From: Desmodesmus armatus
Taxonomy: Eukaryota > Chlorophyta > Chlorophyceae > Sphaeropleales > Scenedesmaceae
DNA length: 64,000 bases
Direction of reading: 5' to 3'
Assembly: GCA_007449985.2 (NCBI GenBank)
Contig: VIIQ02000846.1
Location: 90,943-154,942 of the forward strand
Shown: positions 36,756 through 64,000 of the stretch, in pieces
How positions within the stretch are numbered: position 1 is the first letter of the stretch
Layout of the letters: each line of letters opens with the position of its first letter
Position numbers and translations under genes: made by a program
The notes under the pieces: generated by a model
What the model was told of the DNA's origin: nothing
Databases searched by the model: none
The model's input: only the letters and a program-made list of their open reading frames with translations

Positions 36756-39300
<2,545 letters not shown>

Positions 39301-51435: not shown

Positions 51436-52311
51436 GGCTCACAACTGCACCAGAGAGGTCTCGGTGCCAAGAAAGAGGGAGGTCAGAGGCCTCGCTTCCG
51501 TTCATGCAGCAGCAGAAAGTAAGACCTAAGCCCTGATGGGGGCAGTCAGAAAGAGGGAATGAACTCGGTGTATGAATGAAGAATTTTCGGTTTTTCTGAT
51601 AACCTAATCTAACCGAGTACGTCCTCGTCTCGTCGGACAGACAACCAGACACACGCTTTGGCAGCAAGTAGTCAGACCGTCACTGGGACCACAGGCTTGA
51701 AATGCAGGGACAGATGGGAGGGGTCTACACACAGCTGGCTAGGGCTAACAAGTACCTACCAGATCGTACAGGCAGCTGCAGTGCTTGCCTTGAGTGTCTG
51801 CACAGCAGCTGCATGTGAAAAATGGGGTCTGTCAGCTGAAAATGGCCAGGAGGGGACCAGCAGCTGCTGCCTCAACAACATGCTGTAACAGCAGCTGCAT
51901 GGCTTGTGCACCCACCCACGCACCAGCAGGGAGCTGACTCTCAAGCAGCTTTTTGAACGCCAACAGCAGCAGCGAGGCCAGGCTGTCTCAGTCTCCAACA
52001 AACTGTCTCACAACAAGGCAACAGCAGCAGCTCACAACCCAGCGCTGATCAGGCAACACACAGGCACATATGCCCCTGGGATTCAAATCTTGATTGCTCT
52101 ATCCAGCTGTAAGCTGCTCTGGAGCTTTGAACGCAAACCTCACTTTCTCATTCAACGGCCATAATGTCGTCCGAACTGCCATGGGGCAAAAGGGCCCAGT
52201 TGCGCCCTAGCAGGCCCCATAGGGATTCTTTGTTACGGAAAAGCATTTCTCTGCACTTGTCGACCCAAGACAGCAGCGGTGACCTTCCACCTGGCTTACT
52301 TCTGCCGAACT
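51436..52311. other. eS8 upstream region up to the array junction
   Basis: About 0.9 kb containing the eS8 promoter and unique sequence. Homology to the tandem array starts abruptly at 52312 (GAAGGTCTCACATG). No gene seen. Confidence 0.5.
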
Positions 52312-52435
52312 GAAGGTCTCACATGTGTGACCACCCCCCTGATTAAACCCCATTTGAACCCTAGCCCCAGCCCATTGGGCACTGCTGCTTCAGTGCTTTA
52401 ACATGCACCCTGTTGCTGTTTTCAACCACGCGCAG

Positions 52436-54634
52436 GGCACCAGCTAAGGAGGAACCTGTGCACAGCGGTCACAACCGCCACACCCCGGCCACCAGGAAGT
52501 CATGCGTCGTGGCTTGCGCCCAGGCTCTCGTCGACGGCAAGGTCGATTATGGCCTTGCCGGCAGACTATATAAGAAGGTGCGCAAGCAGCTTGGTGGTGA
52601 CAAGCTGGCAGAGGATCCCAAGCCTGTATTGAAGGGCAGATGGGACCACTTTGTGGAGTACGGTGACGTCGAGGACAACCTCCGCACAGGCCGCCCTGTC
52701 CTTATCAGCAGAGAAGATGCCCTAACAGCTAGTACAGCCATCAAGGCAGGAAGGCTGCACACAAAGACCCGCAAAGGACACACCATCACCCTGATATCCT
52801 ACTTCACCACAGTGCGGCAGGCGACGGTGGAGTCTGATGCTGTCAAGGGTGTCATGCAGAAATACAACTGCACCCCCCACCAGCTGTACAACGCCATGAT
52901 GAGGGAGGATCCCAACCTCGGGCGGCGCAGTTTTGCGTTGAAGTACCGGCTGACAGAAAAGGAGAAAGCTGCCCGGAAAAGCTTCTGCAAGCAGCTGCTG
53001 GCAGAGTGGAACGTCGCACAGGCGTTGCTGAATGCAATCCTAGCTAGGATTGTGCAGTGCGACGAGGGCCGCTGGACATACAACACCTACACCCATGCGC
53101 ATGTCAGGGCATATGTGGACCTGCAGCACCTCCCCCTGCACGACTACGTGTCGCTGCCAACGATCAAGGGGGACAAGCAGCAGACAGTTCACTTCTTCAT
53201 ATGCGTGTCAGCACACCCCAGCTTCAGCGACAAGAACGGCTTGGTGTACTATGAACTCACCACAGGCACCACCCACATCCTCCGCTGGTTCAACAAGCTT
53301 GGGCAAGAAGGCAAAGAGCCCTTTGTCTACCAGGTGAGCACAGTTACAAATTGACCAGCTGGTTTCCAAAGGCATCAGCAGCAGTTGCTGCTGCTGCTCC
53401 CACCCCAGCACACAGCTTCTCAATGTGAGGCTTGCCAGAAAGCTCGTAGCTGGCAGTAAAAACAACACCCTTATGCTGCGATGCATATTCAACAGCTGCC
53501 ATAACAATATCTGGTGCCGCGAGGTCTGCATGATGCGCGCGTACGAGCGCCAGGCGGCGCTCGCAGCATACCTTGTTGCACTTGAAATCACGCTCAAATG
53601 CCTTATTCTTGCAACCATCCCTGAAGTGATAAGAATCGTCAACTTGTAGATACACGTCGCGCTTCCAGTTGTAGAAATCAATGCGACCATGGCAATCGGT
53701 CAAGTGCACCTGCCAACACCACTCCTGTGACTGCTGCTGCTGCGCAACTAGCTGCATGAACTTCCACTCTGCAGGGGGGATAACAGGACGGCCAGCAGCC
53801 TCCCATGCCCCACTTTCATAAGTGCAGAAGCAGCACATGAGTGCGACAGGCTTGCGCACAGCGTCAGGGGTGCACAACTTGAAGTGTTGCACCTTGTCCC
53901 GACACTCCGTAGTGCACCACATGAACTGCTGCTTCTTCTCTGACTTGAGCAACTTATACTCATTGCCAGCACGGTCCACCCACGTCACTGCTCTGTTGTG
54001 TGGCTTCTTCACCCTGATCCCCCCAGTTGATGTGCTGCCAAGGCCTTCCTCATCAATGCCTCCCTCCCTTTGCTGTTGCCGTGCTGTTGCTCCGCCATGC
54101 CGTGACCTGCAGAGGAAGGATGGAGCAGACGCAGCAAGCACTGTTACTGATGAGGTAGCTGACAACCTGTACAAGATGGTGGAGAAGTTTAGGAATGTGA
54201 CTGGTGAGGACCCCATCATCATGATGGACAACGTCCGCATACAGGCCAACATCCCGGATAAGATCATCGAGTCCCGCTACGGCACCATCACCCTGCCTGA
54301 AGGCTGCCGCCTTCGCTTCCCCCCCCACAGCTCAGACATTGATCAGCTGGTGGAGCACTCCATTGGTGCAGTCAAGGGAGCAGCAACAGACAAGGTGTTT
54401 GATGAATGCTGCCATGGGGTTGTGTTCTCGGGTGAGTCCCTGCGGCGCATCTTCAAGGGTGTGTTTAAGAGGTTTGAGAAGGGGAGCTGTACCACCGGGG
54501 GTGGAGCGCAACATGCGCAAGCTGCCCACTGTGTTGAGGATTATCGCATCCGGAGAGGATGAGTGGTTCACAGATCCAGATGGCAAGCAGCACCATGGCA
54601 GCAACGGCGACTGGCCGAATGCAGGCGACCGCTA
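52436..54634 (+). pseudogene. DDE transposase copy 1, lacks exon 1 and is frameshifted in the last exon
   Basis: Corresponds to exon 2 (52436-53333, intact 898 bp) and exon 3 (from 54113) of the transposase described at 55705-58157. In exon 3, two G runs are each one base shorter than in copies 2 and 3 (near 54483 and 54498). The frame therefore shifts after FKRFEKG and stops at 54562 instead of 54634. With no start exon to its left it cannot make the full protein. Confidence 0.8.
53344..54098 (-). pseudogene. Antisense Vsr/DUF559-like endonuclease copy 1, frameshifted near the N-terminus
   Basis: Same gene as at 56863-57618, but 755 bp long instead of 756: the C-run near 54018-54025 is one base shorter. 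The first 25 or so codons after the ATG (54098) are out of frame with the rest. The body, from IRVKKPHNRAVTW to the stop, is intact and remains open upstream in another N-terminal frame. Confidence 0.7.
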
Positions 54635-54740
54635 AGGCGTCAGCGCATGCAGCAGATGCAGCAGCAGCATGGCAGCAGTTTGCTGTCCAAGCCTGCACAT
54701 GGCTGCGCATGGGGTGTGTGTTCCCAGGGTATGCCACCTA

Positions 54741-54754
54741 TAGGGTTTAGGGTT
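54741..54754 (+). repeat. Telomere-like TAGGGTTTAGGGTT tract in each array unit
   Basis: The tract lies about 105 bp after the transposase stop. Identical copies are at 58261-58274 and 61784-61797, one per unit, so it is part of the repeated element rather than a chromosome-end remnant at one site. Confidence 0.7.
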
Positions 54755-55704
54755 CAGCTGCAGCCACTGCTGTGGTGAGCATCAGTGTCTTCATGATCTG
54801 TGGCCAGTGCATCCGCTGAGCTAACAAGATGTAGTGCAGCCTGTGTTTATTCAAAGCACAGCCCTCAATGTAGTTGTTGCAAGTTTGATCAATGTAGTTA
54901 TCAGGGTTGTGTGTGAGAGAGGGTGTTGGAAGTGCCACTGGCCCCCACCCAGGTGTACTGTTGGGCAGGCAGCACACATAGCAGCTGTCCAATCATTGAT
55001 TCTGTCACATAAACTGGTATGTGTGTTGAGAGTTTGCAGCTTAGATGCCCCATCTTTACCTCATTGTGCTTGAGACAGGCACTACTGGGAGTTATGTCAT
55101 GTCAACTGTGCCTGGTATTGCACTGTTAGCAGCTGTGCTTTCACAGCTGTGCAACCAGGCATGCTCGAGGCCGAATGCTATAATATTGAGTACGAAACGA
55201 GTTCATTTGCTGCGCAAGGAAAGCAACCTGGAAGCATCCAAGCCAACTTCACCCCTGTTCAAAGGCCAATGGTCCGCGCTTACATCAACATCACCCTCTG
55301 TAGCAACGTCAGTTTGTAGTAAATCAAGCATTCAACGAACAGCAGGCGTCTGGAGAGCAGCCGGTGCCCACAGCAGGAACAGCAAGCAATCTGCAGAGAC
55401 TGCCAGCTTTCCAGGTGTGGCGGGCTTGTCGCGATAAGGCCAGTGCCAGTGTGACGTGCTTGACAGGTCCTCTTAAAGCATTCATAAGTCATTCATTTTG
55501 CTTTCGAGAGCTGCACGCAAGCCCTTTGGAAGTTTCGCGCCAGACATCACTAGCATCTGCTCAAGTCTGAAGTCAGCTGAGGCGTCTATGGCCCCGCTGC
55601 ACCAGATAGACTCTCACAATGCACAAAAACACACATTTTGGTACACGCACCGCTGCGGATTATGCAGGTCCGCGACACCAGCCTGCCTGGAACGCTGCAG
55701 CAAG

Positions 55705-58157
55705 ATGGGCAAAAACAAGCGCAGCAGAGCGAGTGACAAGTGAGTGCGATCAGATCTGCCCAGGTAGCACTGCAGCCTGGCACAGCTTGCGGGCGAGCAG
55801 CTGCACCAACGGCGAAAGTCAACCAACCTTGAAGGTCTCACATGTGTGACCACCCCCCTGATTAAACCCCATTTGAACCCTAGCCCCAGCCCATTGGGCA
55901 CTGCTGCTTCAGTGCTTTAACATGCACCCTGTTGCTGTTTTCAACCACGCGCAGGGCACCAGCTAAGGAGGAGCCTGTGCACAGCGGTCACAACCGCCAC
56001 ACCCCGGCCACCAGGAAGTCATGCGTCGTGGCTTGCGCCCAGGCTCTCGTCGACGGCAAGGTCGATTATGGCCTTGCCGGCAGACTATATAAGAAGGTGC
56101 GCAAGCAGCTTGGTGGTGACAAGCTGGCAGAGGATCCCAAGCCTGTATTGAAGGGCAGATGGGACCACTTTGTGGAGTACGGTGACGTCGAGGACAACCT
56201 CCGCACAGGCCGCCCTGTCCTTATCAGCAGAGAAGATGCCCTAACAGCTAGTACAGCCATCAAGGCAGGAAGGCTGCACACAAAGACCCGCAAAGGACAC
56301 ACCATCACCCTGATATCCTACTTCACCACAGTGCGGCAGGCGACGGTGGAGTCTGATGCTGTCAAGGGTGTCATGCAGAAATACAACTGCACCCCCCACC
56401 AGCTGTACAACGCCATGATGAGGGAGGATCCCAACCTCGGGCGGCGCAGTTTTGCGTTGAAGTACCGGCTGACAGAAAAGGAGAAAGCTGCCCGGAAAAG
56501 CTTCTGCAAGCAGCTGCTGGCAGAGTGGAACGTCGCACAGGCGTTGCTGAATGCAATCCTAGCTAGGATTGTGCAGTGCGACGAGGGCCGCTGGACATAC
56601 AACACCTACACCCATGCGCATGTCAGGGCATATGTGGACCTGCAGCACCTCCCCCTGCACGACTACGTGTCGCTGCCAACGATCAAGGGGGACAAGCAGC
56701 AGACAGTTCACTTCTTCATATGCGTGTCAGCACACCCCAGCTTCAGCGACAAGAACGGCTTGGTGTACTATGAACTCACCACAGGCACCACCCACATCCT
56801 CCGCTGGTTCAACAAGCTTGGGCAAGAAGGCAAAGAGCCCTTTGTCTACCAGGTGAGCACAGTTACAAATTGACCAGCTGGTTTCCAAAGGCATCAGCAG
56901 CAGTTGCTGCTGCTGCTCCCACCCCAGCACACAGCTTCTCAATGTGAGGCTTGCCAGAAAGCTCGTAGCTGGCAGTAAAAACAACACCCTTATGCTGCGA
57001 TGCATATTCAACAGCTGCCATAACAATATCTGGTGCCGCGAGGTCTGCATGATGCGCGCGTACGAGCGCCAGGCGGCGCTCGCAGCATACCTTGTTGCAC
57101 TTGAAATCACGCTCAAATGCCTTATTCTTGCAACCATCCCTGAAGTGATAAGAATCGTCAACTTGTAGATACACGTCGCGCTTCCAGTTGTAGAAATCAA
57201 TGCGACCATGGCAATCGGTCAAGTGCACCTGCCAACACCACTCCTGTGACTGCTGCTGCTGCGCAACTAGCTGCATGAACTTCCACTCTGCAGGGGGGAT
57301 AACAGGACGGCCAGCAGCCTCCCATGCCCCACTTTCATAAGTGCAGAAGCAGCACATGAGTGCGACAGGCTTGCGCACAGCGTCAGGGGTGCACAACTTG
57401 AAGTGTTGCACCTTGTCCCGACACTCCGTAGTGCACCACATGAACTGCTGCTTCTTCTCTGACTTGAGCAACTTATACTCATTGCCAGCACGGTCCACCC
57501 ACGTCACTGCTCTGTTGTGTGGCTTCTTCACCCTGATCCCCCCCAGTTGATGTGCTGCCAAGGCCTTCCTCATCAATGCCTCCCTCCCTTTGCTGTTGCC
57601 GTGCTGTTGCTCCGCCATGCCGTGACCTGCAGAGGAAGGATGGAGCAGACGCAGCAAGCACTGTTACTGATGAGGTAGCTGACAACCTGTACAAGATGGT
57701 GGAGAAGTTTAGGAATGTGACTGGTGAGGACCCCATCATCATGATGGACAACGTCCGCATACAGGCCAACATCCCGGATAAGATCATCGAGTCCCGCTAC
57801 GGCACCATCACCCTGCCTGAAGGCTGCCGCCTTCGCTTCCCCCCCCACAGCTCAGACATTGATCAGCTGGTGGAGCACTCCATTGGTGCAGTCAAGGGAG
57901 CAGCAACAGACAAGGTGTTTGATGAATGCTGCCATGGGGTTGTGTTCTCGGGTGAGTCCCTGCGGCGCATCTTCAAGGGTGTGTTTAAGAGGTTTGAGAA
58001 GGGGGAGCTGTACCACCGGGGGGTGGAGCGCAACATGCGCAAGCTGCCCACTGTGTTGAGGATTATCGCATCCGGAGAGGATGAGTGGTTCACAGATCCA
58101 GATGGCAAGCAGCACCATGGCAGCAACGGCGACTGGCCGAATGCAGGCGACCGCTAA
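55705..58157 (+). CDS. Tc1/mariner/IS630-like DDE transposase, copy 2 (intact)
   Basis: Three exons, 55705-55739, 55955-56852 and 57633-58157, joined in phase, give 485 aa. The start exon (MGKNKRSRASD) lies at the end of the preceding unit and, with RHTPATRKS after it, forms a basic, NLS-like N-terminus. About residues 45-110 resemble a Tc1/mariner HTH region (YGDVEDNLRTGRPVLISREDA, as in GDVEDxPRSGRP). The catalytic triad candidates are Asp221 (VQCDEGRW), Asp350 (IIMMDNVRIQ) and Glu392 (PPHSSDIDQLVEHSIGAVK, the counterpart of PPxSPDLNPIEhvW), with 41 residues between the second Asp and the Glu. Intron 1 is 215 bp. Intron 2 is 780 bp and carries an antisense ORF along nearly its whole length. 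DNA cut-and-paste transposition is the family role; activity is unproven. Confidence 0.75.
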
Positions 58158-59351
58158 GGCGTCAGCGCATGCAGCAGATGCAGCAGCAGCATGGCAGCAG
58201 TTTGCTGTCCAAGCCTGCACATGGCTGCGCATGGGGTGTGTTCCCAGGGTATGCCACCTATAGGGTTTAGGGTTCAGCTGCAGCCACTGCTGTGGTGAGC
58301 ATCAGTGTCTTCATGATCTGTGGCCAGTGCATCCGCTGAGCTAACAAGATGTAGTGCAGCCTGTGTTTATTCAAAGCACAGCCCTCAATGTAGTTGTTGC
58401 AAGTTTGATCAATGTAGTTATCAGGGTTGTGTGTGAGAGAGGGTGTTGGAAGTGCCACTGGCCCCCACCCAGGTGTACTGTTGGGCAGGCAGCACACATA
58501 GCAGCTGTCCAATCATTGATTCTGTCACATAAACTGGTATGTGTGTTGAGAGTTTGCAGCTTAGATGCCCCATCTTTACCTCATTGTGCTTGAGACAGGC
58601 ACTACTGGGAGTTATGTCATGTCAACTGTGCCTGGTATTGCACTGTTAGCAGCTGTGCTTTCACAGCTGTGCAACCAGGCATGCTCGAGGCCGAATGCTA
58701 TAATATTGAGTACGAAACGAGTTCATTTGCTGCGCAAGGAAAGCAACCTGGAAGCATCCAAGCCAACTTCACCCCTGTTCAAAGGCCAATGGTCCGCGCT
58801 TACATCAACATCACCCTCTGTAGCAACGTCAGTTTGTAGTAAATCAAGCATTCAACGAACAGCAGGCGTCTGGAGAGCAGCCGGTGCCCACAGCAGGAAC
58901 AGCAAGCAATCTGCAGAGACTGCCAGCTTTCCAGGTGTGGCGGGCTTGTCGCGATAAGGCCAGTGCCAGTGTGACGTGCTTGACAGGTCCTCTTAAAGCA
59001 TTCATAAGTCATTCATTTTGCTTTCGAGAGCTGCACGCAAGCCCTTTGGAAGTTTCGCGCCAGACATCACTAGCATCTGCTCAAGTCTGAAGTCAGCTGA
59101 GGCGTCTATGGCCCCGCTGCACCAGATAGACTCTCACAATGCACAAAAACACACATTTTGGTACACGCACCGCTGCGGATTATGCAGGTCCGCGACACCA
59201 GCCTGCCTGGAACGCTGCAGCAAGATGGGCAAAAACAAGCGCAGCAGAGCGAGTGACAAGTGAGTGCGATCAGATCTGCCCAGGTAGCACTGCAGCCTGG
59301 CACAGCTTGCGGGCGAGCAGCTGCACCAACGGCGAAAGTCAACCAACCTTT
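55831..59351 (+). mobile_element. Tandem transposon array, unit 2 (3521 bp)
   Basis: A complete unit, nearly identical to unit 3. It contains transposase exons 2 and 3 of copy 2, the nested antisense endonuclease ORF, about 1.07 kb of non-coding sequence with a telomere-like tract, and the start exon (59225) of copy 3 near its right end. Unit limits are drawn where homology begins in unit 1 and need not be the true transposon ends. Confidence 0.88.
56863..57618 (-). CDS. Vsr/DUF559-like PD-(D/E)XK endonuclease nested antisense in the transposase intron, copy 2
   Basis: An uninterrupted ATG-initiated frame of 251 aa lies wholly inside transposase intron 2 (56853-57632), beginning 14 bp from the acceptor and ending 10 bp from the donor. 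A Cys-rich part (WCTTEC at 61-66, C76, MCCFC at 88-92) suggests a zinc-binding module. Then come PPAEWKFMQLVAQ (Glu111), GRIDFYNWKRDVYLQVDDSYHF (Asp141, Gln152, Asp154, His158), FERDFKCNKV (Arg170, Asp171) and LALVRAHH. This order matches the Vsr/DUF559 endonuclease pattern: E-x-x-F...L, then R-x-D-F, x-x-x-E/Q-x-D-G-x-x-H, R-D-x-x-x, V-x-R. The tail is Ala-rich. The stop codon overlaps a TGTAA. A DNA-nicking or cutting role in the element's life cycle is inference. Confidence 0.62.
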   Translation of the reverse strand: MAEQQHGNSKGREALMRKALAAHQLGGIRVKKPHNRAVTWVDRAGNEYKLLKSEKKQQFMWCTTECRDKVQHFKLCTPDAVRKPVALMCCFCTYESGAWEAAGRPVIPPAEWKFMQLVAQQQQSQEWCWQVHLTDCHGRIDFYNWKRDVYLQVDDSYHFRDGCKNKAFERDFKCNKVCCERRLALVRAHHADLAAPDIVMAAVEYASQHKGVVFTASYELSGKPHIEKLCAGVGAAAATAADAFGNQLVNL

Positions 59352-61678
59352 GAAGGTCTCACATGTGTGACCACCCCCCTGATTAAACCCCATTTGAACC
59401 CTAGCCCCAGCCCATTGGGCACTGCTGCTTCAGTGCTTTCAAATGCACCCTGTTGCTGTTTTCAACCACGCGCAGGGCACCAGCTAAGGAGGAGCCTGTG
59501 CACAGCGGTCACAACCGCCACACCCCGGCCACCAGGAAGTCATGCGTCGTGGCTTGCGCCCAGGCTCTCGTCGACGGCAAGGTCGATTATGGCCTTGCCG
59601 GCAGACTATATAAGAAGGTGCGCAAGCAGCTTGGTGGTGACAAGCTGGCAGAGGATCCCAAGCCTGTATTGAAGGGCAGATGGGACCACTTTGTGGAGTA
59701 CGGTGACGTCGAGGACAACCTCCGCACAGGCCGCCCTGTCCTTATCAGCAGAGAAGATGCCCTAACAGCTAGTACAGCCATCAAGGCAGGAAGGCTGCAC
59801 ACAAAGACCCGCAAAGGACACACCATCACCCTGATATCCTACTTCACCACAGTGCGGCAGGCGACGGTGGAGTCTGATGCTGTCAAGGGTGTCATGCAGA
59901 AATACAACTGCACCCCCCACCAGCTGTACAACGCCATGATGAGGGAGGATCCCAACCTCGGGCGGCGCAGTTTTGCGTTGAAGTACCGGCTGACAGAAAA
60001 GGAGAAAGCTGCCCGGAAAAGCTTCTGCAAGCAGCTGCTGGCAGAGTGGAACGTCGCACAGGCGTTGCTGAATGCAATCCTAGCTAGGATTGTGCAGTGC
60101 GACGAGGGCCGCTGGACATACAACACCTACACCCATGCGCATGTCAGGGCATATGTGGACCTGCAGCACCTCCCCCTGCACGACTACGTGTCGCTGCCAA
60201 CGATCAAGGGGGACAAGCAGCAGACAGTTCACTTCTTCATATGCGTGTCAGCACACCCCAGCTTCAGCGACAAGAACGGCTTGGTGTACTATGAACTCAC
60301 CACAGGCACCACCCACATCCTCCGCTGGTTCAACAAGCTTGGGCAAGAAGGCAAAGAGCCCTTTGTCTACCAGGTGAGCACAGTTACAAATTGACCAGCT
60401 GGTTTCCAAAGGCATCAGCAGCAGTTGCTGCTGCTGCTCCCACCCCAGCACACAGCTTCTCAATGTGAGGCTTGCCAGAAAGCTCGTAGCTGGCAGTAAA
60501 AACAACACCCTTATGCTGCGATGCATATTCAACAGCTGCCATAACAATATCTGGTGCCGCGAGGTCTGCATGATGCGCGCGTACGAGCGCCAGGCGGCGC
60601 TCGCAGCATACCTTGTTGCACTTGAAATCACGCTCAAATGCCTTATTCTTGCAACCATCCCTGAAGTGATAAGAATCGTCAACTTGTAGATACACGTCGC
60701 GCTTCCAGTTGTAGAAATCAATGCGACCATGGCAATCGGTCAAGTGCACCTGCCAACACCACTCCTGTGACTGCTGCTGCTGCGCAACTAGCTGCATGAA
60801 CTTCCACTCTGCAGGGGGGATAACAGGACGGCCAGCAGCCTCCCATGCCCCACTTTCATAAGTGCAGAAGCAGCACATGAGTGCGACAGGCTTGCGCACA
60901 GCGTCAGGGGTGCACAACTTGAAGTGTTGCACCTTGTCCCGACACTCCGTAGTGCACCACATGAACTGCTGCTTCTTCTCTGACTTGAGCAACTTATACT
61001 CATTGCCAGCACGGTCCACCCACGTCACTGCTCTGTTGTGTGGCTTCTTCACCCTGATCCCCCCCAGTTGATGTGCTGCCAAGGCCTTCCTCATCAATGC
61101 CTCCCTCCCTTTGCTGTTGCCGTGCTGTTGCTCCGCCATGCCGTGACCTGCAGAGGAAGGATGGAGCAGACGCAGCAAGCACTGTTACTGATGAGGTAGC
61201 TGACAACCTGTACAAGATGGTGGAGAAGTTTAGGAATGTGACTGGTGAGGACCCCATCATCATGATGGACAACGTCCGCATACAGGCCAACATCCCGGAT
61301 AAGATCATCGAGTCCCGCTACGGCACCATCACCCTGCCTGAAGGCTGCCGCCTTCGCTTCCCCCCCCACAGCTCAGACATTGATCAGCTGGTGGAGCACT
61401 CCATTGGTGCAGTCAAGGGAGCAGCAACAGACAAGGTGTTTGATGAATGCTGCCATGGGGTTGTGTTCTCGGGTGAGTCCCTGCGGCGCATCTTCAAGGG
61501 TGTGTTTAAGAGGTTTGAGAAGGGGGAGCTGTACCACCGGGGGGTGGAGCGCAACATGCGCAAGCTGCCCACTGTGTTGAGGATTATCGCATCCGGAGAG
61601 GATGAGTGGTTCACAGATCCAGATGGCAAGCAGCACCATGGCAGCAACGGCGACTGGCCGAATGCAGGCGACCGCTAA
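59225..61678 (+). CDS. Tc1/mariner/IS630-like DDE transposase, copy 3 (intact)
   Basis: Exons 59225-59259, 59476-60373 and 61154-61678 have the same lengths, splice sites and reading frame as copy 2, giving 485 aa with an apparently identical protein sequence. The 5' intron is one base longer than in copy 2. Copies 2 and 3 are the only two in the window with all three exons and no frame break, which supports the gene model. Confidence 0.75.
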
Positions 61679-62872
61679 GGCGTCAGCGCATGCAGCAGAT
61701 GCAGCAGCAGCATGGCAGCAGTTTGCTGTCCAAGCCTGCACATGGCTGCGCATGGGGTGTGTGTTCCCAGGGTATGCCACCTATAGGGTTTAGGGTTCAG
61801 CTGCAGCCACTGCTGTGGTGAGCATCAGTGTCTTCATGATCTGTGGCCAGTGCATCCGCTGAGCTAACAAGATGTAGTGCAGCCTGTGTTTATTCAAAGC
61901 ACAGCCCTCAATGTAGTTGTTGCAAGTTTGATCAATGTAGTTATCAGGGTTGTGTGTGAGAGAGGGTGTTGGAAGTGCCACTGGCCCCCACCCAGGTGTA
62001 CTGTTGGGCAGGCAGCACACATAGCAGCTGTCCAATCATTGATTCTGTCACATAAACTGGTATGTGTGTTGAGAGTTTGCAGCTTAGATGCCCCATCTTT
62101 ACCTCATTGTGCTTGAGACAGGCACTACTGGGAGTTATGTCATGTCAACTGTGCCTGGTATTGCACTGTTAGCAGCTGTGCTTTCACAGCTGTGCAACCA
62201 GGCATGCTCGAGGCCGAATGCTATAATATTGAGTACGAAACGAGTTCATTTGCTGCGCAAGGAAAGCAACCTGGAAGCATCCAAGCCAACTTCACCCCTG
62301 TTCAAAGGCCAATGGTCCGCGCTTACATCAACATCACCCTCTGTAGCAACGTCAGTTTGTAGTAAATCAAGCATTCAACGAACAGCAGGCGTCTGAGAGC
62401 AGCCGGTGCCCACAGCAGGAACAGCAAGCAATCTGCAGAGACTGCCAGCTTTCCAGGTGTGGCGGGCTTGTCGCGATAAGGCCAGTGCCAGTGTGACGTG
62501 CTTGACAGGTCCTCTTAAAGCATTCATAAGTCATTCATTTTGCTTTCGAGAGCTGCACGCAAGCCCTTTGGAAGTTTCGCGCCAGACATCACTAGCATCT
62601 GCTCAAGTCTGAAGTCAGCTGAGGCGTCTATGGCCCCGCTGCACCAGATAGACTCTCACAATGCACAAAACACACATTTTGGTACACGCACCGCTGCGGA
62701 TTATGCAGGTCCGCGACACCAGCCTGCCTGGAACGCTGCAGCAAGATGGGCAAAAACAAGCGCAGCAGAGCGAGTGACAAGTGAGTGCGATCAGATCTGC
62801 CCAGGTAGCACTGCAGCCTGGCACAGCTTGCGGGCGAGCAGCTGCACCAACGGCGAAAGTCAACCAACCTTT
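59352..62872 (+). mobile_element. Tandem transposon array, unit 3 (3521 bp)
   Basis: A complete unit in direct orientation, with the same gene content as unit 2. Its distal part (from about 62390) begins to show one-base deletions relative to units 1 and 2 (for example GTCTGGAGAGC reads GTCTGAGAGC), a pattern that becomes dense in unit 4. Confidence 0.88.
60384..61139 (-). CDS. Vsr/DUF559-like PD-(D/E)XK endonuclease nested antisense in the transposase intron, copy 3
   Basis: The same 251-aa frame as copy 2, from ATG at 61139 to the stop at 60384-60386, inside intron 60374-61153 of transposase copy 3. All motif residues listed for copy 2 are present. Length, start and stop are conserved, so at least two of the array's endonuclease ORFs are intact. 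Confidence 0.62.
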   Translation of the reverse strand: MAEQQHGNSKGREALMRKALAAHQLGGIRVKKPHNRAVTWVDRAGNEYKLLKSEKKQQFMWCTTECRDKVQHFKLCTPDAVRKPVALMCCFCTYESGAWEAAGRPVIPPAEWKFMQLVAQQQQSQEWCWQVHLTDCHGRIDFYNWKRDVYLQVDDSYHFRDGCKNKAFERDFKCNKVCCERRLALVRAHHADLAAPDIVMAAVEYASQHKGVVFTASYELSGKPHIEKLCAGVGAAAATAADAFGNQLVNL

Positions 62873-63880
62873 GAAGGTCTCACATGTGTGACCACCCCCC
62901 TGATTAAACCCATTTGAACCCTAGCCCAGCCCATTGGGCACTGCTGCTTCAGTGCTTTCAAATGCACCCTGTTGCTGTTTTCAACCACGCGCAGGGCACC
63001 AGCTAAGGAGGAGCCTGTGCACAGCGGTCACAACCGCCACACCCCGGCCACCAGGAAGTCATGCGTCGGGCTTGCGCCCAGGCTCTCGTCGACGGCAAGG
63101 TCGATTATGGCCTTGCCGGCAGACTATATAAGAAGTGCGCAAGCAGCTTGGTGGTGACAAGCTGGCAGAGGATCCAAGCCTGTATTGAAGGGCAGATGGG
63201 ACCACTTTGTGGAGTACGGTGACGTCGAGGACAACCTCCGCACAGGCCGCCCTGTCCTTATCAGCAGAGAAGATGCCCTAACAGCTAGTACAGCCATCAA
63301 GGCAGGAAGGCTGCACACAAAGACCCGCAAAGGACACACCATCACCCTGATATCCTACTTCACCACAGTGCGGCAGGCGACGGTGGAGTCTGATGCTGTC
63401 AAGGGTGTCATGCAGAAATAACTGCCCCCCCACCAGCTGTACAACGCCATGATGAGGGAGGATCCCAACCTCGGGCGGCGCAGTTTTGCGTTGAAGTACC
63501 GGCTGACAGAAAAGGAGAAAGCTGCCCGGAAAAGCTTCTGCAAGCAGCTGCTGGCAGAGTGGAACGTCGCACAGGCGTTGCTGAATGCAATCCTAGCTAG
63601 GATTGTGCAGTGCGACGAGGGCCGCTGGACATACAACACCTACACCCTGCGCATGTCAGCATATGTGGACCTGCAGCACCTCCCCTGCACGACTACGTGT
63701 CGCTGCCAACGATCAAGGGGGACAAGCAGCAGACAGTTCACTTCTTCATATGCGTGTCAGCACACCCCAGCTTCAGCGACAAGAACGGCTTGGTGTACTA
63801 TGAACTCACCACAGGCACCACCCACATCCTCCGCTGGTTCAAACAAGCTTGGCCAGAAGCAAAGAGCCCTTTGTCTACCA
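62746..63880 (+). pseudogene. DDE transposase copy 4, partial and riddled with one-base deletions
   Basis: The start exon (62746-62780) is intact. Exon 2 (from 62995) has lost single bases at many sites relative to copies 2 and 3 (for example GTCGTGGCTTG reads GTCGGGCTTG, AAGGTGCGC reads AAGTGCGC, GATCCCAAG reads GATCCAAG), and the donor CAGGTGAGC reads CAGTGAGC. The frame is broken repeatedly. Exon 3 lies beyond the window. The deletions look like low-quality consensus rather than natural decay. Confidence 0.75.
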
Positions 63881-64000
63881 GTGAGCACAGTTACCAATTG
63901 ACCAGCTGGTTTCCAAAGGCATCAGCAGCAGTTGCTGCTGCTGCTCCCACCCAGCACCAGCTGCTTCTCAATGTGAGGCTTGCCGAAAGCTCGTAGCTGG
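62873..64000 (+). mobile_element. Tandem transposon array, unit 4 (truncated by the window)
   Basis: The first 1.1 kb of a fourth direct unit, continuing past the end of the window. It contains degraded transposase exon 2 and the 3' end of the antisense endonuclease ORF. Confidence 0.85.
63891..64000 (-). CDS. Antisense Vsr/DUF559-like endonuclease copy 4, C-terminal part only
   Basis: The stop codon region (TAA at 63891-63893) and the last codons (Ala-rich tail) are visible; the rest lies outside the window. The penultimate sequence differs from copies 2 and 3 (VNW instead of VNL), and small indels are present nearby. Confidence 0.5.
   Translation of the reverse strand, partial: SYELSASLTLRSSWCWVGAAAATAADAFGNQLVNW

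Follow-up and report, generated by a model that had tools for sequence, protein, structure and literature searches.

How does a gene on the opposite strand come to fill an intron of a transposase gene, and what could such nesting do for the DNA that carries it? The question is raised by the right end of the window, i.e., the whole stretch of 64,000 nucleotides of Desmodesmus armatus analysed here (contig VIIQ02000846.1), which is a head-to-tail array with a unit of 3.52 kb. A sequence-only reading had placed there a 780-bp transposase intron (56853–57632) filled by an antisense ORF of 251 amino acids that leaves 10 and 14 bp at the two splice sites, and these coordinates were confirmed, as was the same arrangement in the third copy of the unit, where the intron at 60374–61153 (plus strand) holds at 60384–61139 an ORF for the identical protein. 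The answer we favour, at a probability of roughly 60%, is a composite-like transposon whose transposase would move units and whose intron-nested nuclease would drive their tandem multiplication by recombination.

Anatomy of the element and its families

When the genome of the window (115.8 Mb in 831 contigs) was searched in six frames, at least 157 matches to the ORF were returned (150 of 393 candidates scored), among them a second family at 28–29% identity. We distinguish four families, namely A (that of the window), B (L009), C (L024) and D (L027 and L033), each with a similar antisense ORF between transposase exons 2 and 3.

In the window, the array is preceded at its left end by a terminal direct repeat of 657 bp (51654–52310), which is 99.8% identical to the 658-bp repeat of isolated copies. 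Core copy 1 (52311–55829), the boundaries of which were taken from isolated copies with differing flanks, is followed by core copy 2 (55830–59350), adjoining copies 1 and 3 with no direct repeat between them, by core copy 3 (59351–62871) and by a partial, frameshifted core copy 4 at the window end (62872–64000), all on the plus strand. The isolated family-A copies C1, C52 and C60 share a common 3.52-kb core with the same ends, unrelated DNA outside, and 658-bp direct repeats (99.8–100% alike) on both sides; a fourth, C739, is complete on one side only. Read by eye, and with the right repeat taken to end in TG, family-A insertions are flanked by the 3-bp target duplications tgt, aag and cac, and the one solo 658-bp repeat examined (L036, G000:C165:174224-174881) shows the duplication tct.

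The other families fit the same scheme. Family B has a 675-bp repeat with perfect 22-bp inverted termini and a repeat-core-core-repeat insertion with the duplication acc, family D has repeats of 657 and 656 bp around one core, and the array spacings of family C (3552 and 4229) fit a repeat-core order. The inverted termini of the repeat, perfect in B, are imperfect in A and partial in D, with terminal sequences CAGTG..CACTG in B and CGCTT..AACTG in A. The element is thus composite-like, with direct repeats of about 660 bp flanking a core of 3.5–3.7 kb, and a plain satellite repeat is excluded, as the isolated copies end exactly and are bordered by target duplications. The A repeat was found at no fewer than 40 further places (of 92 candidates; the window's own excluded), all of them 100% identical, and activity or homogenisation must therefore have been recent. 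Outside the array, an ORF at 38383–39135 of the window contains a long alanine run that derives from a trinucleotide repeat.

Two further loci in the genome depart from the full layout. On contig C193 (L035, G000:C193:30049-53231), at least 10 nuclease matches are spaced 2501–2502 bp apart, and in the single unit that was read, exon 2 is retained, as is the nuclease (residues 10–255, the first residues replaced), and no exon-3 match was seen. A lone exon 2 with 75% identity to family A and a kept donor lies at L023 4517–5425 (G000:C640); no exon-3 or nuclease match was present in the 9.9 kb fetched around it, and it probably represents a fifth family in truncated form.

A putative transposase interrupted by an antisense gene

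The core would encode its transposase in spliced exons, all on the plus strand. Exon 2 (55955–56852) carries an HTH-like region and the first catalytic Asp, and exon 3 (57633–58157) the second catalytic Asp (MDN) and the Glu (VEHS); both exons are conserved in families A–D. The four-family profile of exon 2 reached SETMAR, which we take to carry a mariner transposase, in two separate chains, one aligned over the HTH-like part containing GRP (E 0.0011) and the other at the first catalytic DE (E 0.013), followed by SETMAR at E 0.014 and Mos1 at 2.8 and 3.3. The top match of this profile, above SETMAR, was a coiled-coil of SH3BP5 (E 0.00029), which was taken as chance. Exon 3 matched DDE_3 in B, C and D (0.009, 0.0017 and 0.03, each below the curated cut-off) and not in A, joined or unjoined, and HTH_32 matched family C at 2.6e-6, likewise under the cut-off. 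In a PDB search with the exon-3 profile, the best 60 of 89 matches included no transposase and were headed by repeat proteins (best E 0.0081) and bromodomains. Between recent pairs, dN/dS of the transposase parts was 0.14–0.80 where defined, and 0.25 for exon 2 of A versus E.

Judged from these likenesses, the predicted transposase is related to the IS630-Tc1-mariner group and is not of the standard Tc1/mariner type. The earlier assignment to Tc1/mariner-like DDE transposases therefore stood as far as the relationship goes, by SETMAR and the weak DDE_3 matches, whereas an ordinary Tc1/mariner element is excluded by 3-bp target duplications, introns and a DD41-47E signature (41, 45, 47 and 43 residues between the second Asp and the Glu in A, B, C and D). 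Zator elements, which have a 3-bp duplication and DD43E, led nowhere as a home for the transposase.

The best candidate for exon 1, read by eye, lies at the end of each core, at 55705–55739 in core copy 1 (plus strand, ATG, phase 2) and again at 59226–59260. It therefore has exon 2 after it only where one core follows another, directly or with a repeat between them, and would be missing upstream of exon 2 in single isolated copies. The true exon 1 may lie somewhere else, perhaps in the direct repeat; alternatively, full expression of the transposase may be limited to arrays or circles.

Intron 2 (56853–57632, plus strand) separates exons 2 and 3 in phase 0, from the donor CAG/GTGAGC at 56853 to the acceptor CTGCAG at 57632. 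It measures 780, 799, 799 and 847 bp in A, B, C and D, at equal position and phase. One might also suppose that nothing is spliced here and that exons 2 and 3 are separate genes of a split transposase beside an antisense nuclease gene. Exon 3 could indeed start at an internal ATG, and joining the exons brought no gain in DDE_3 score (18.7 to 18.9 bits in C, 14.6 to 13.5 in D, none in A). However, the GTG donor and the CTGCAG acceptor recur at the homologous phase-0 position in all four families, and the intron would separate the first catalytic residue from the second, which makes a split transposase highly improbable in our view.

On the minus strand, the ORF inside the intron runs from 57618 to 56863 and comprises 251 codons and a stop. 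Its counterpart in core copy 1 is 96% identical over residues 15–251 and differs at the N-terminus, and that in core copy 4 is frameshifted. From donor to stop, the distance is 10, 9, 9 and 21 bp in families A to D; between the acceptor and the first ATG it is 14 bp in A, 70 in B and 22 in C, so that the very tight fit of 10 and 14 bp is special to family A. The family-D frame (L033 1985–2806, L027 4469–5293) has no ATG near the N-terminus, i.e., none ahead of residue 119, and translation may begin in an upstream antisense exon or at a non-ATG codon. Among the 131 exon-2 matches listed from the genome, 76 span the whole exon-2 query, and for 73 of these a listed match to the antisense ORF lies no more than 40 bp from the donor (at least 700 nt long in 63 cases, shorter in 10); the other three are a match at a contig end, the truncated C640 copy and C713:56922.

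Could the frame simply have stayed open by chance in a GC-rich intron? Its length by itself is only moderately improbable: dinucleotide-preserving shuffles reached the stop-free length in 0, 0, 3 and 2 of 500 cases per intron (families A, B, C and D), i.e., in 5 of 2000 overall. What rules out chance is homology, since the ORF recurs in four families and has homologues in 26 database proteins, near-copies not counted, which share its conserved residues; we consider this reading refuted by conservation and give it next to no weight.

Antisense transcription through the intron might disturb splicing or yield double-stranded RNA and so limit transposition, in which case the nested gene would be mainly regulatory and any nuclease activity secondary. 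Such a role would suit the full antisense overlap and a stop placed 9–21 bp from the donor in all four families. Regulation alone, however, offers no explanation for the conservation of the protein, beyond that of a transcript, at its presumed catalytic residues, and we rate a mainly regulatory gene as improbable.

The nested protein and its relatives

With a profile of the nested protein, at least 29 database proteins were found (8000 candidates sharing the most words were scored). Near-copies among those listed are P0003 of family A, P0002 of family C and P0024, a fragment with 95% identity to C; the remaining 26 show 51–77% identity to the nearest family of this genome. We aligned 32 members, i.e., families A–D and 28 of the 29 listed proteins (P0003, the near-copy of the window's own, was left out). 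D141, D154, H158, D171, H189 and C89 are invariant in all 32, while E111, R187, D192, H72 and C92 occur in 31 and C66 in 30. The sequence-only reading had noted a Cys-rich, possibly zinc-binding N-terminal part, and this proved to be a CHCC set (C66, H72, C89 and C92, each in at least 30 of 32 members) which is putatively zinc-binding.

Library searches gave little for the protein of the window: Pfam and NCBIfam held no family for it at E up to 10, PHROGs yielded one match at E 0.17, and the curated Pfam score of DUF559 was not reached. Other members of the alignment had weak, scattered matches to unrelated families (best 0.0026, zf-C2HC), PF04480 had 0 matches in the window's genome, and a PDB sequence search with the nuclease profile returned one match at E 9.7. 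A phage tblastn match at E 0.6 was taken as chance.

EDxHD endonucleases, I-Bth0305I included, belong with DUF559, and the nested protein contains an ordered E-D-xD-H-D(-R) active-site motif (E111, D141, D154, H158, D171, R187) with the spacing of that family. For comparison, 120 bacterial genomes were searched for DUF559 domains, and 37 had a match; of the 30 loci returned, 25 were examined, 22 of which gave a usable segment. By hhalign, the nuclease profile matched DUF559 at 76.3% (P 2.2e-5, 71 columns), as compared with at most 2.2% (P 0.022) for 60 column-shuffled DUF559 profiles and 0.1 and 0.2% for two unrelated profiles; this local alignment begins at D141, with E111 outside it. The two Asp residues D141 and D154 are 13 apart in 32 of 32 nested proteins and in 22 of 22 DUF559 domains, a distance that was free within a range, whereas that from the second Asp to the His was preset by the segment-picking pattern. 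From the Glu to the first Asp, the distance is 30 in 26 and 33 in 6 of the 32 nested proteins; in the 22 DUF559 segments, where the Glu was sought 25–33 residues ahead, it is 29 (20 segments) or 28 (2 segments).

These likenesses link the nested protein, as a predicted member, to PD-(D/E)XK nucleases of the DUF559/EDxHD type. Of the earlier designation as Vsr/DUF559-type, the DUF559 half is supported by the 76% of hhalign and the motif spacing, and Vsr proper was rejected, as the likeness was not significant (0.3% and 0.7%); the Vsr set was narrow (loci 77–97% identical), the Glu and DF stretches were still paired, and DUF559 itself scored 26% against Vsr.

Changes between recent pairs were few. 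The nuclease dN/dS was 0.74 in family C (2 synonymous and 5 non-synonymous changes) and 0.78 in D (7.7 and 19.3 changes), the latter value probably inflated by a frameshifted patch near the N-terminus; family B showed 0 and 4 changes. Such values (0.74–0.78) do not demonstrate purifying selection and decide the dN/dS test of the earlier reading in neither direction; the conservation of the nuclease is seen only in the deep comparison. At that depth, the ORF is kept in diverged homologous elements, both in families A–D and in database proteins. Over the alignment, identity to A is 24–27% for the nested proteins of B, C and D (local matches between families 25–35%), exon 2 is 30–34% identical to A (C–D locally up to 43%) and exon 3 is 25–34% identical to A (C–D up to 45%). 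In local matches of the nuclease, A is the outlier (25–28% vs 33–35%), and in exon 2 A–B, A–C and A–D give 32–34%, B–D 40, C–D 43 and B–C only 32%. Nuclease and transposase identities thus appear broadly parallel, with A standing apart less cleanly for exon 2, and the retention of the nested layout in four such distantly related families suggests a functional partnership more than a chance association.

Environmental sequences, too, show the antisense gene and an intron at this position. The exon-2 profile gave 29 listed matches. They include the window's own sequence (P0033) and one with 99% identity to family D (P0031); the remaining 27 share 34–83% identity with the nearest family of this genome. 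Donor-reaching sequences number 26 of these 29 (P0054, P0058 and P0059, in which the motif is absent, were left out of the count), and all 26 read through the donor with a valine (GTN) codon, or 24 of 24 without P0031 and P0033; by eye, each of the 26 then continues with sequence other than exon 3. In P0036 and P0044, about 170 further residues match the intron of family D at 62–63%, read on the strand opposite to the nuclease of that family, and their contigs must therefore hold the nested gene. Equal longest contigs (4291 for P0007 and P0041; 5822 for P0015 and P0039) suggest, without proving, linkage of the two genes. Nuclease relatives were found neither in viral contigs nor in the bacterial and archaeal genome contigs scanned. 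Among the matches listed, database nucleases resemble A or C and database transposases A or D, an imbalance that may stem from the limited number of candidates scored.

These relatives bear on the origin of the intron, which the sequence-only reading had ascribed to insertion of an endonuclease gene in the manner of homing. A free-standing homing endonuclease gene could have invaded the transposase, could live in the intron or have created it, and could spread to nuclease-free copies without benefit to the transposon. The DUF559/EDxHD-type motif belongs to a class that includes homing endonucleases, EDxHD enzymes being a recognised homing class (PMC3943268), and a single precise intron position across four families would agree with such an invasion. 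Yet no empty-site relative appeared: among the listed database proteins none was nuclease-free or intronless, and all those that reach the donor pass it. The broadly parallel identities of nuclease and exon 2 also speak against independent spread, and the association of the two genes must be old, since it is held across families at about 30% identity. Birth of the intron by homing was thus not borne out and is a possible origin only, and a purely selfish homing gene seems unlikely to us, if worth keeping in mind.

A transposase and a nuclease as partners, and known counterparts

The composite-like transposon with two cooperating enzymes is the best explanation because of the conserved layout, the conservation of residues and their spacing, the DUF559 and SETMAR matches and the repeats with target duplications. 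The transposase would move repeat-core-repeat units and solo repeats by cut-and-paste, giving 3-bp target duplications. The CHCC and DUF559/EDxHD-type nuclease, if expressed from the opposite strand of intron 2, may cut element DNA at the repeat or at a core junction; if the break is then repaired with a sister or neighbouring copy as the source, cores could be added and long tandem arrays built. Nesting within an intron would come at no cost to the spliced transposase and would tie both genes into one inherited unit. The induced unequal crossover of this model is borrowed from KolobokP (PMC9587614). Abutting cores need the loss of a repeat as well, because repeat-mediated recombination alone cannot make cores without a repeat between them. 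One genome with many near-identical arrays of differing copy number would make the proposed nuclease-induced array growth testable, and a conserved antisense gene in a transposase intron would bear on the linkage of overlapping genes and on the origin of transposon introns.

Several known systems share parts of this design. Like the IS630-Tc1-mariner group (Tc1/mariner, pogo, Zator, Gambol), as described in PMC7386202, the element has an HTH-like region with GRP, the motifs DE, DN and E, and short inverted termini; unlike that group, it has 3-bp non-TA duplications, introns, 41–47 residues between the second Asp and the Glu, terminal direct repeats and a second gene. Mariner elements carrying Fanzor1 or endonucleases, some of them in algal viruses, have been reported (Bao and Jurka, 2013, PMC3627910) and likewise combine a mariner-type transposase with a second nuclease gene. 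They differ, according to that report, in TA duplications and in GIY-YIG, restriction-type or Fanzor proteins encoded in the 3' portion, and the word “intron” is absent from its main text on these elements. The nuclease shares with DUF559/EDxHD proteins (PF04480; I-Bth0305I type; PMC3943268) the order and spacing E-29/30-D-13-D-4-H..D..R, and differs from them in a Q in place of the E before the second D, in the N-terminal CHCC part and in a score below the curated cut-off.

In the open-access literature searched, the same nested arrangement did not appear, and KolobokP was the nearest system. Its authors describe it as unlike other DNA transposons (Kojima and Bao, 2022, PMC9587614), with long terminal direct repeats (LTDRs) of about 450 or 660 bp that have short inverted termini of their own, solo repeats and multimers. 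In their proposal, cleavage of the repeats by the nuclease brings about unequal crossover, and abutting internal regions (INT) are attributed to a lost repeat or monomer (PMC9587614). The likeness extends, by this description, to the order LTDR-INT-LTDR, the inverted termini of the LTDR, solo LTDRs, INT-INT junctions, a DDD/E transposase and a predicted endonuclease on the complementary strand, a role that would here fall to the DUF559-like protein (PMC9587614). The architecture had been called new, and this holds for the nuclease inside the transposase intron, whereas the combination of a DDE transposase with an antisense homing-type endonuclease is already present in KolobokP (PMC9587614).

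As far as anatomy tells, the element would work like KolobokP, though it is not classed as such. By description, KolobokP has a Kolobok transposase (PMC9587614), and the matches recorded for the transposase here are to mariner-type proteins. The nuclease of KolobokP is a His-Me finger protein of the I-PpoI type (PMC9587614), whereas the one here shows a DUF559-like motif and profile. KolobokP has its nuclease gene downstream of the transposase instead of inside an intron, its ends are 5'-RR..YY-3' as compared with CAGTG..CACTG (B) and CGCTT..AACTG (A), and its reported host range is 7 animal phyla (PMC9587614). We lean, if only slightly, towards the view that a lineage related to IS630-Tc1-mariner reached the life style of KolobokP independently, with an unrelated type of nuclease placed inside the spliceosomal intron of its transposase. 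If true, this convergence would mark terminal direct repeats and a self-cutting nuclease as one functional package that spreads by induced recombination besides transposition, and a second, apparently unrelated case would turn KolobokP from a curiosity into a recurring strategy.
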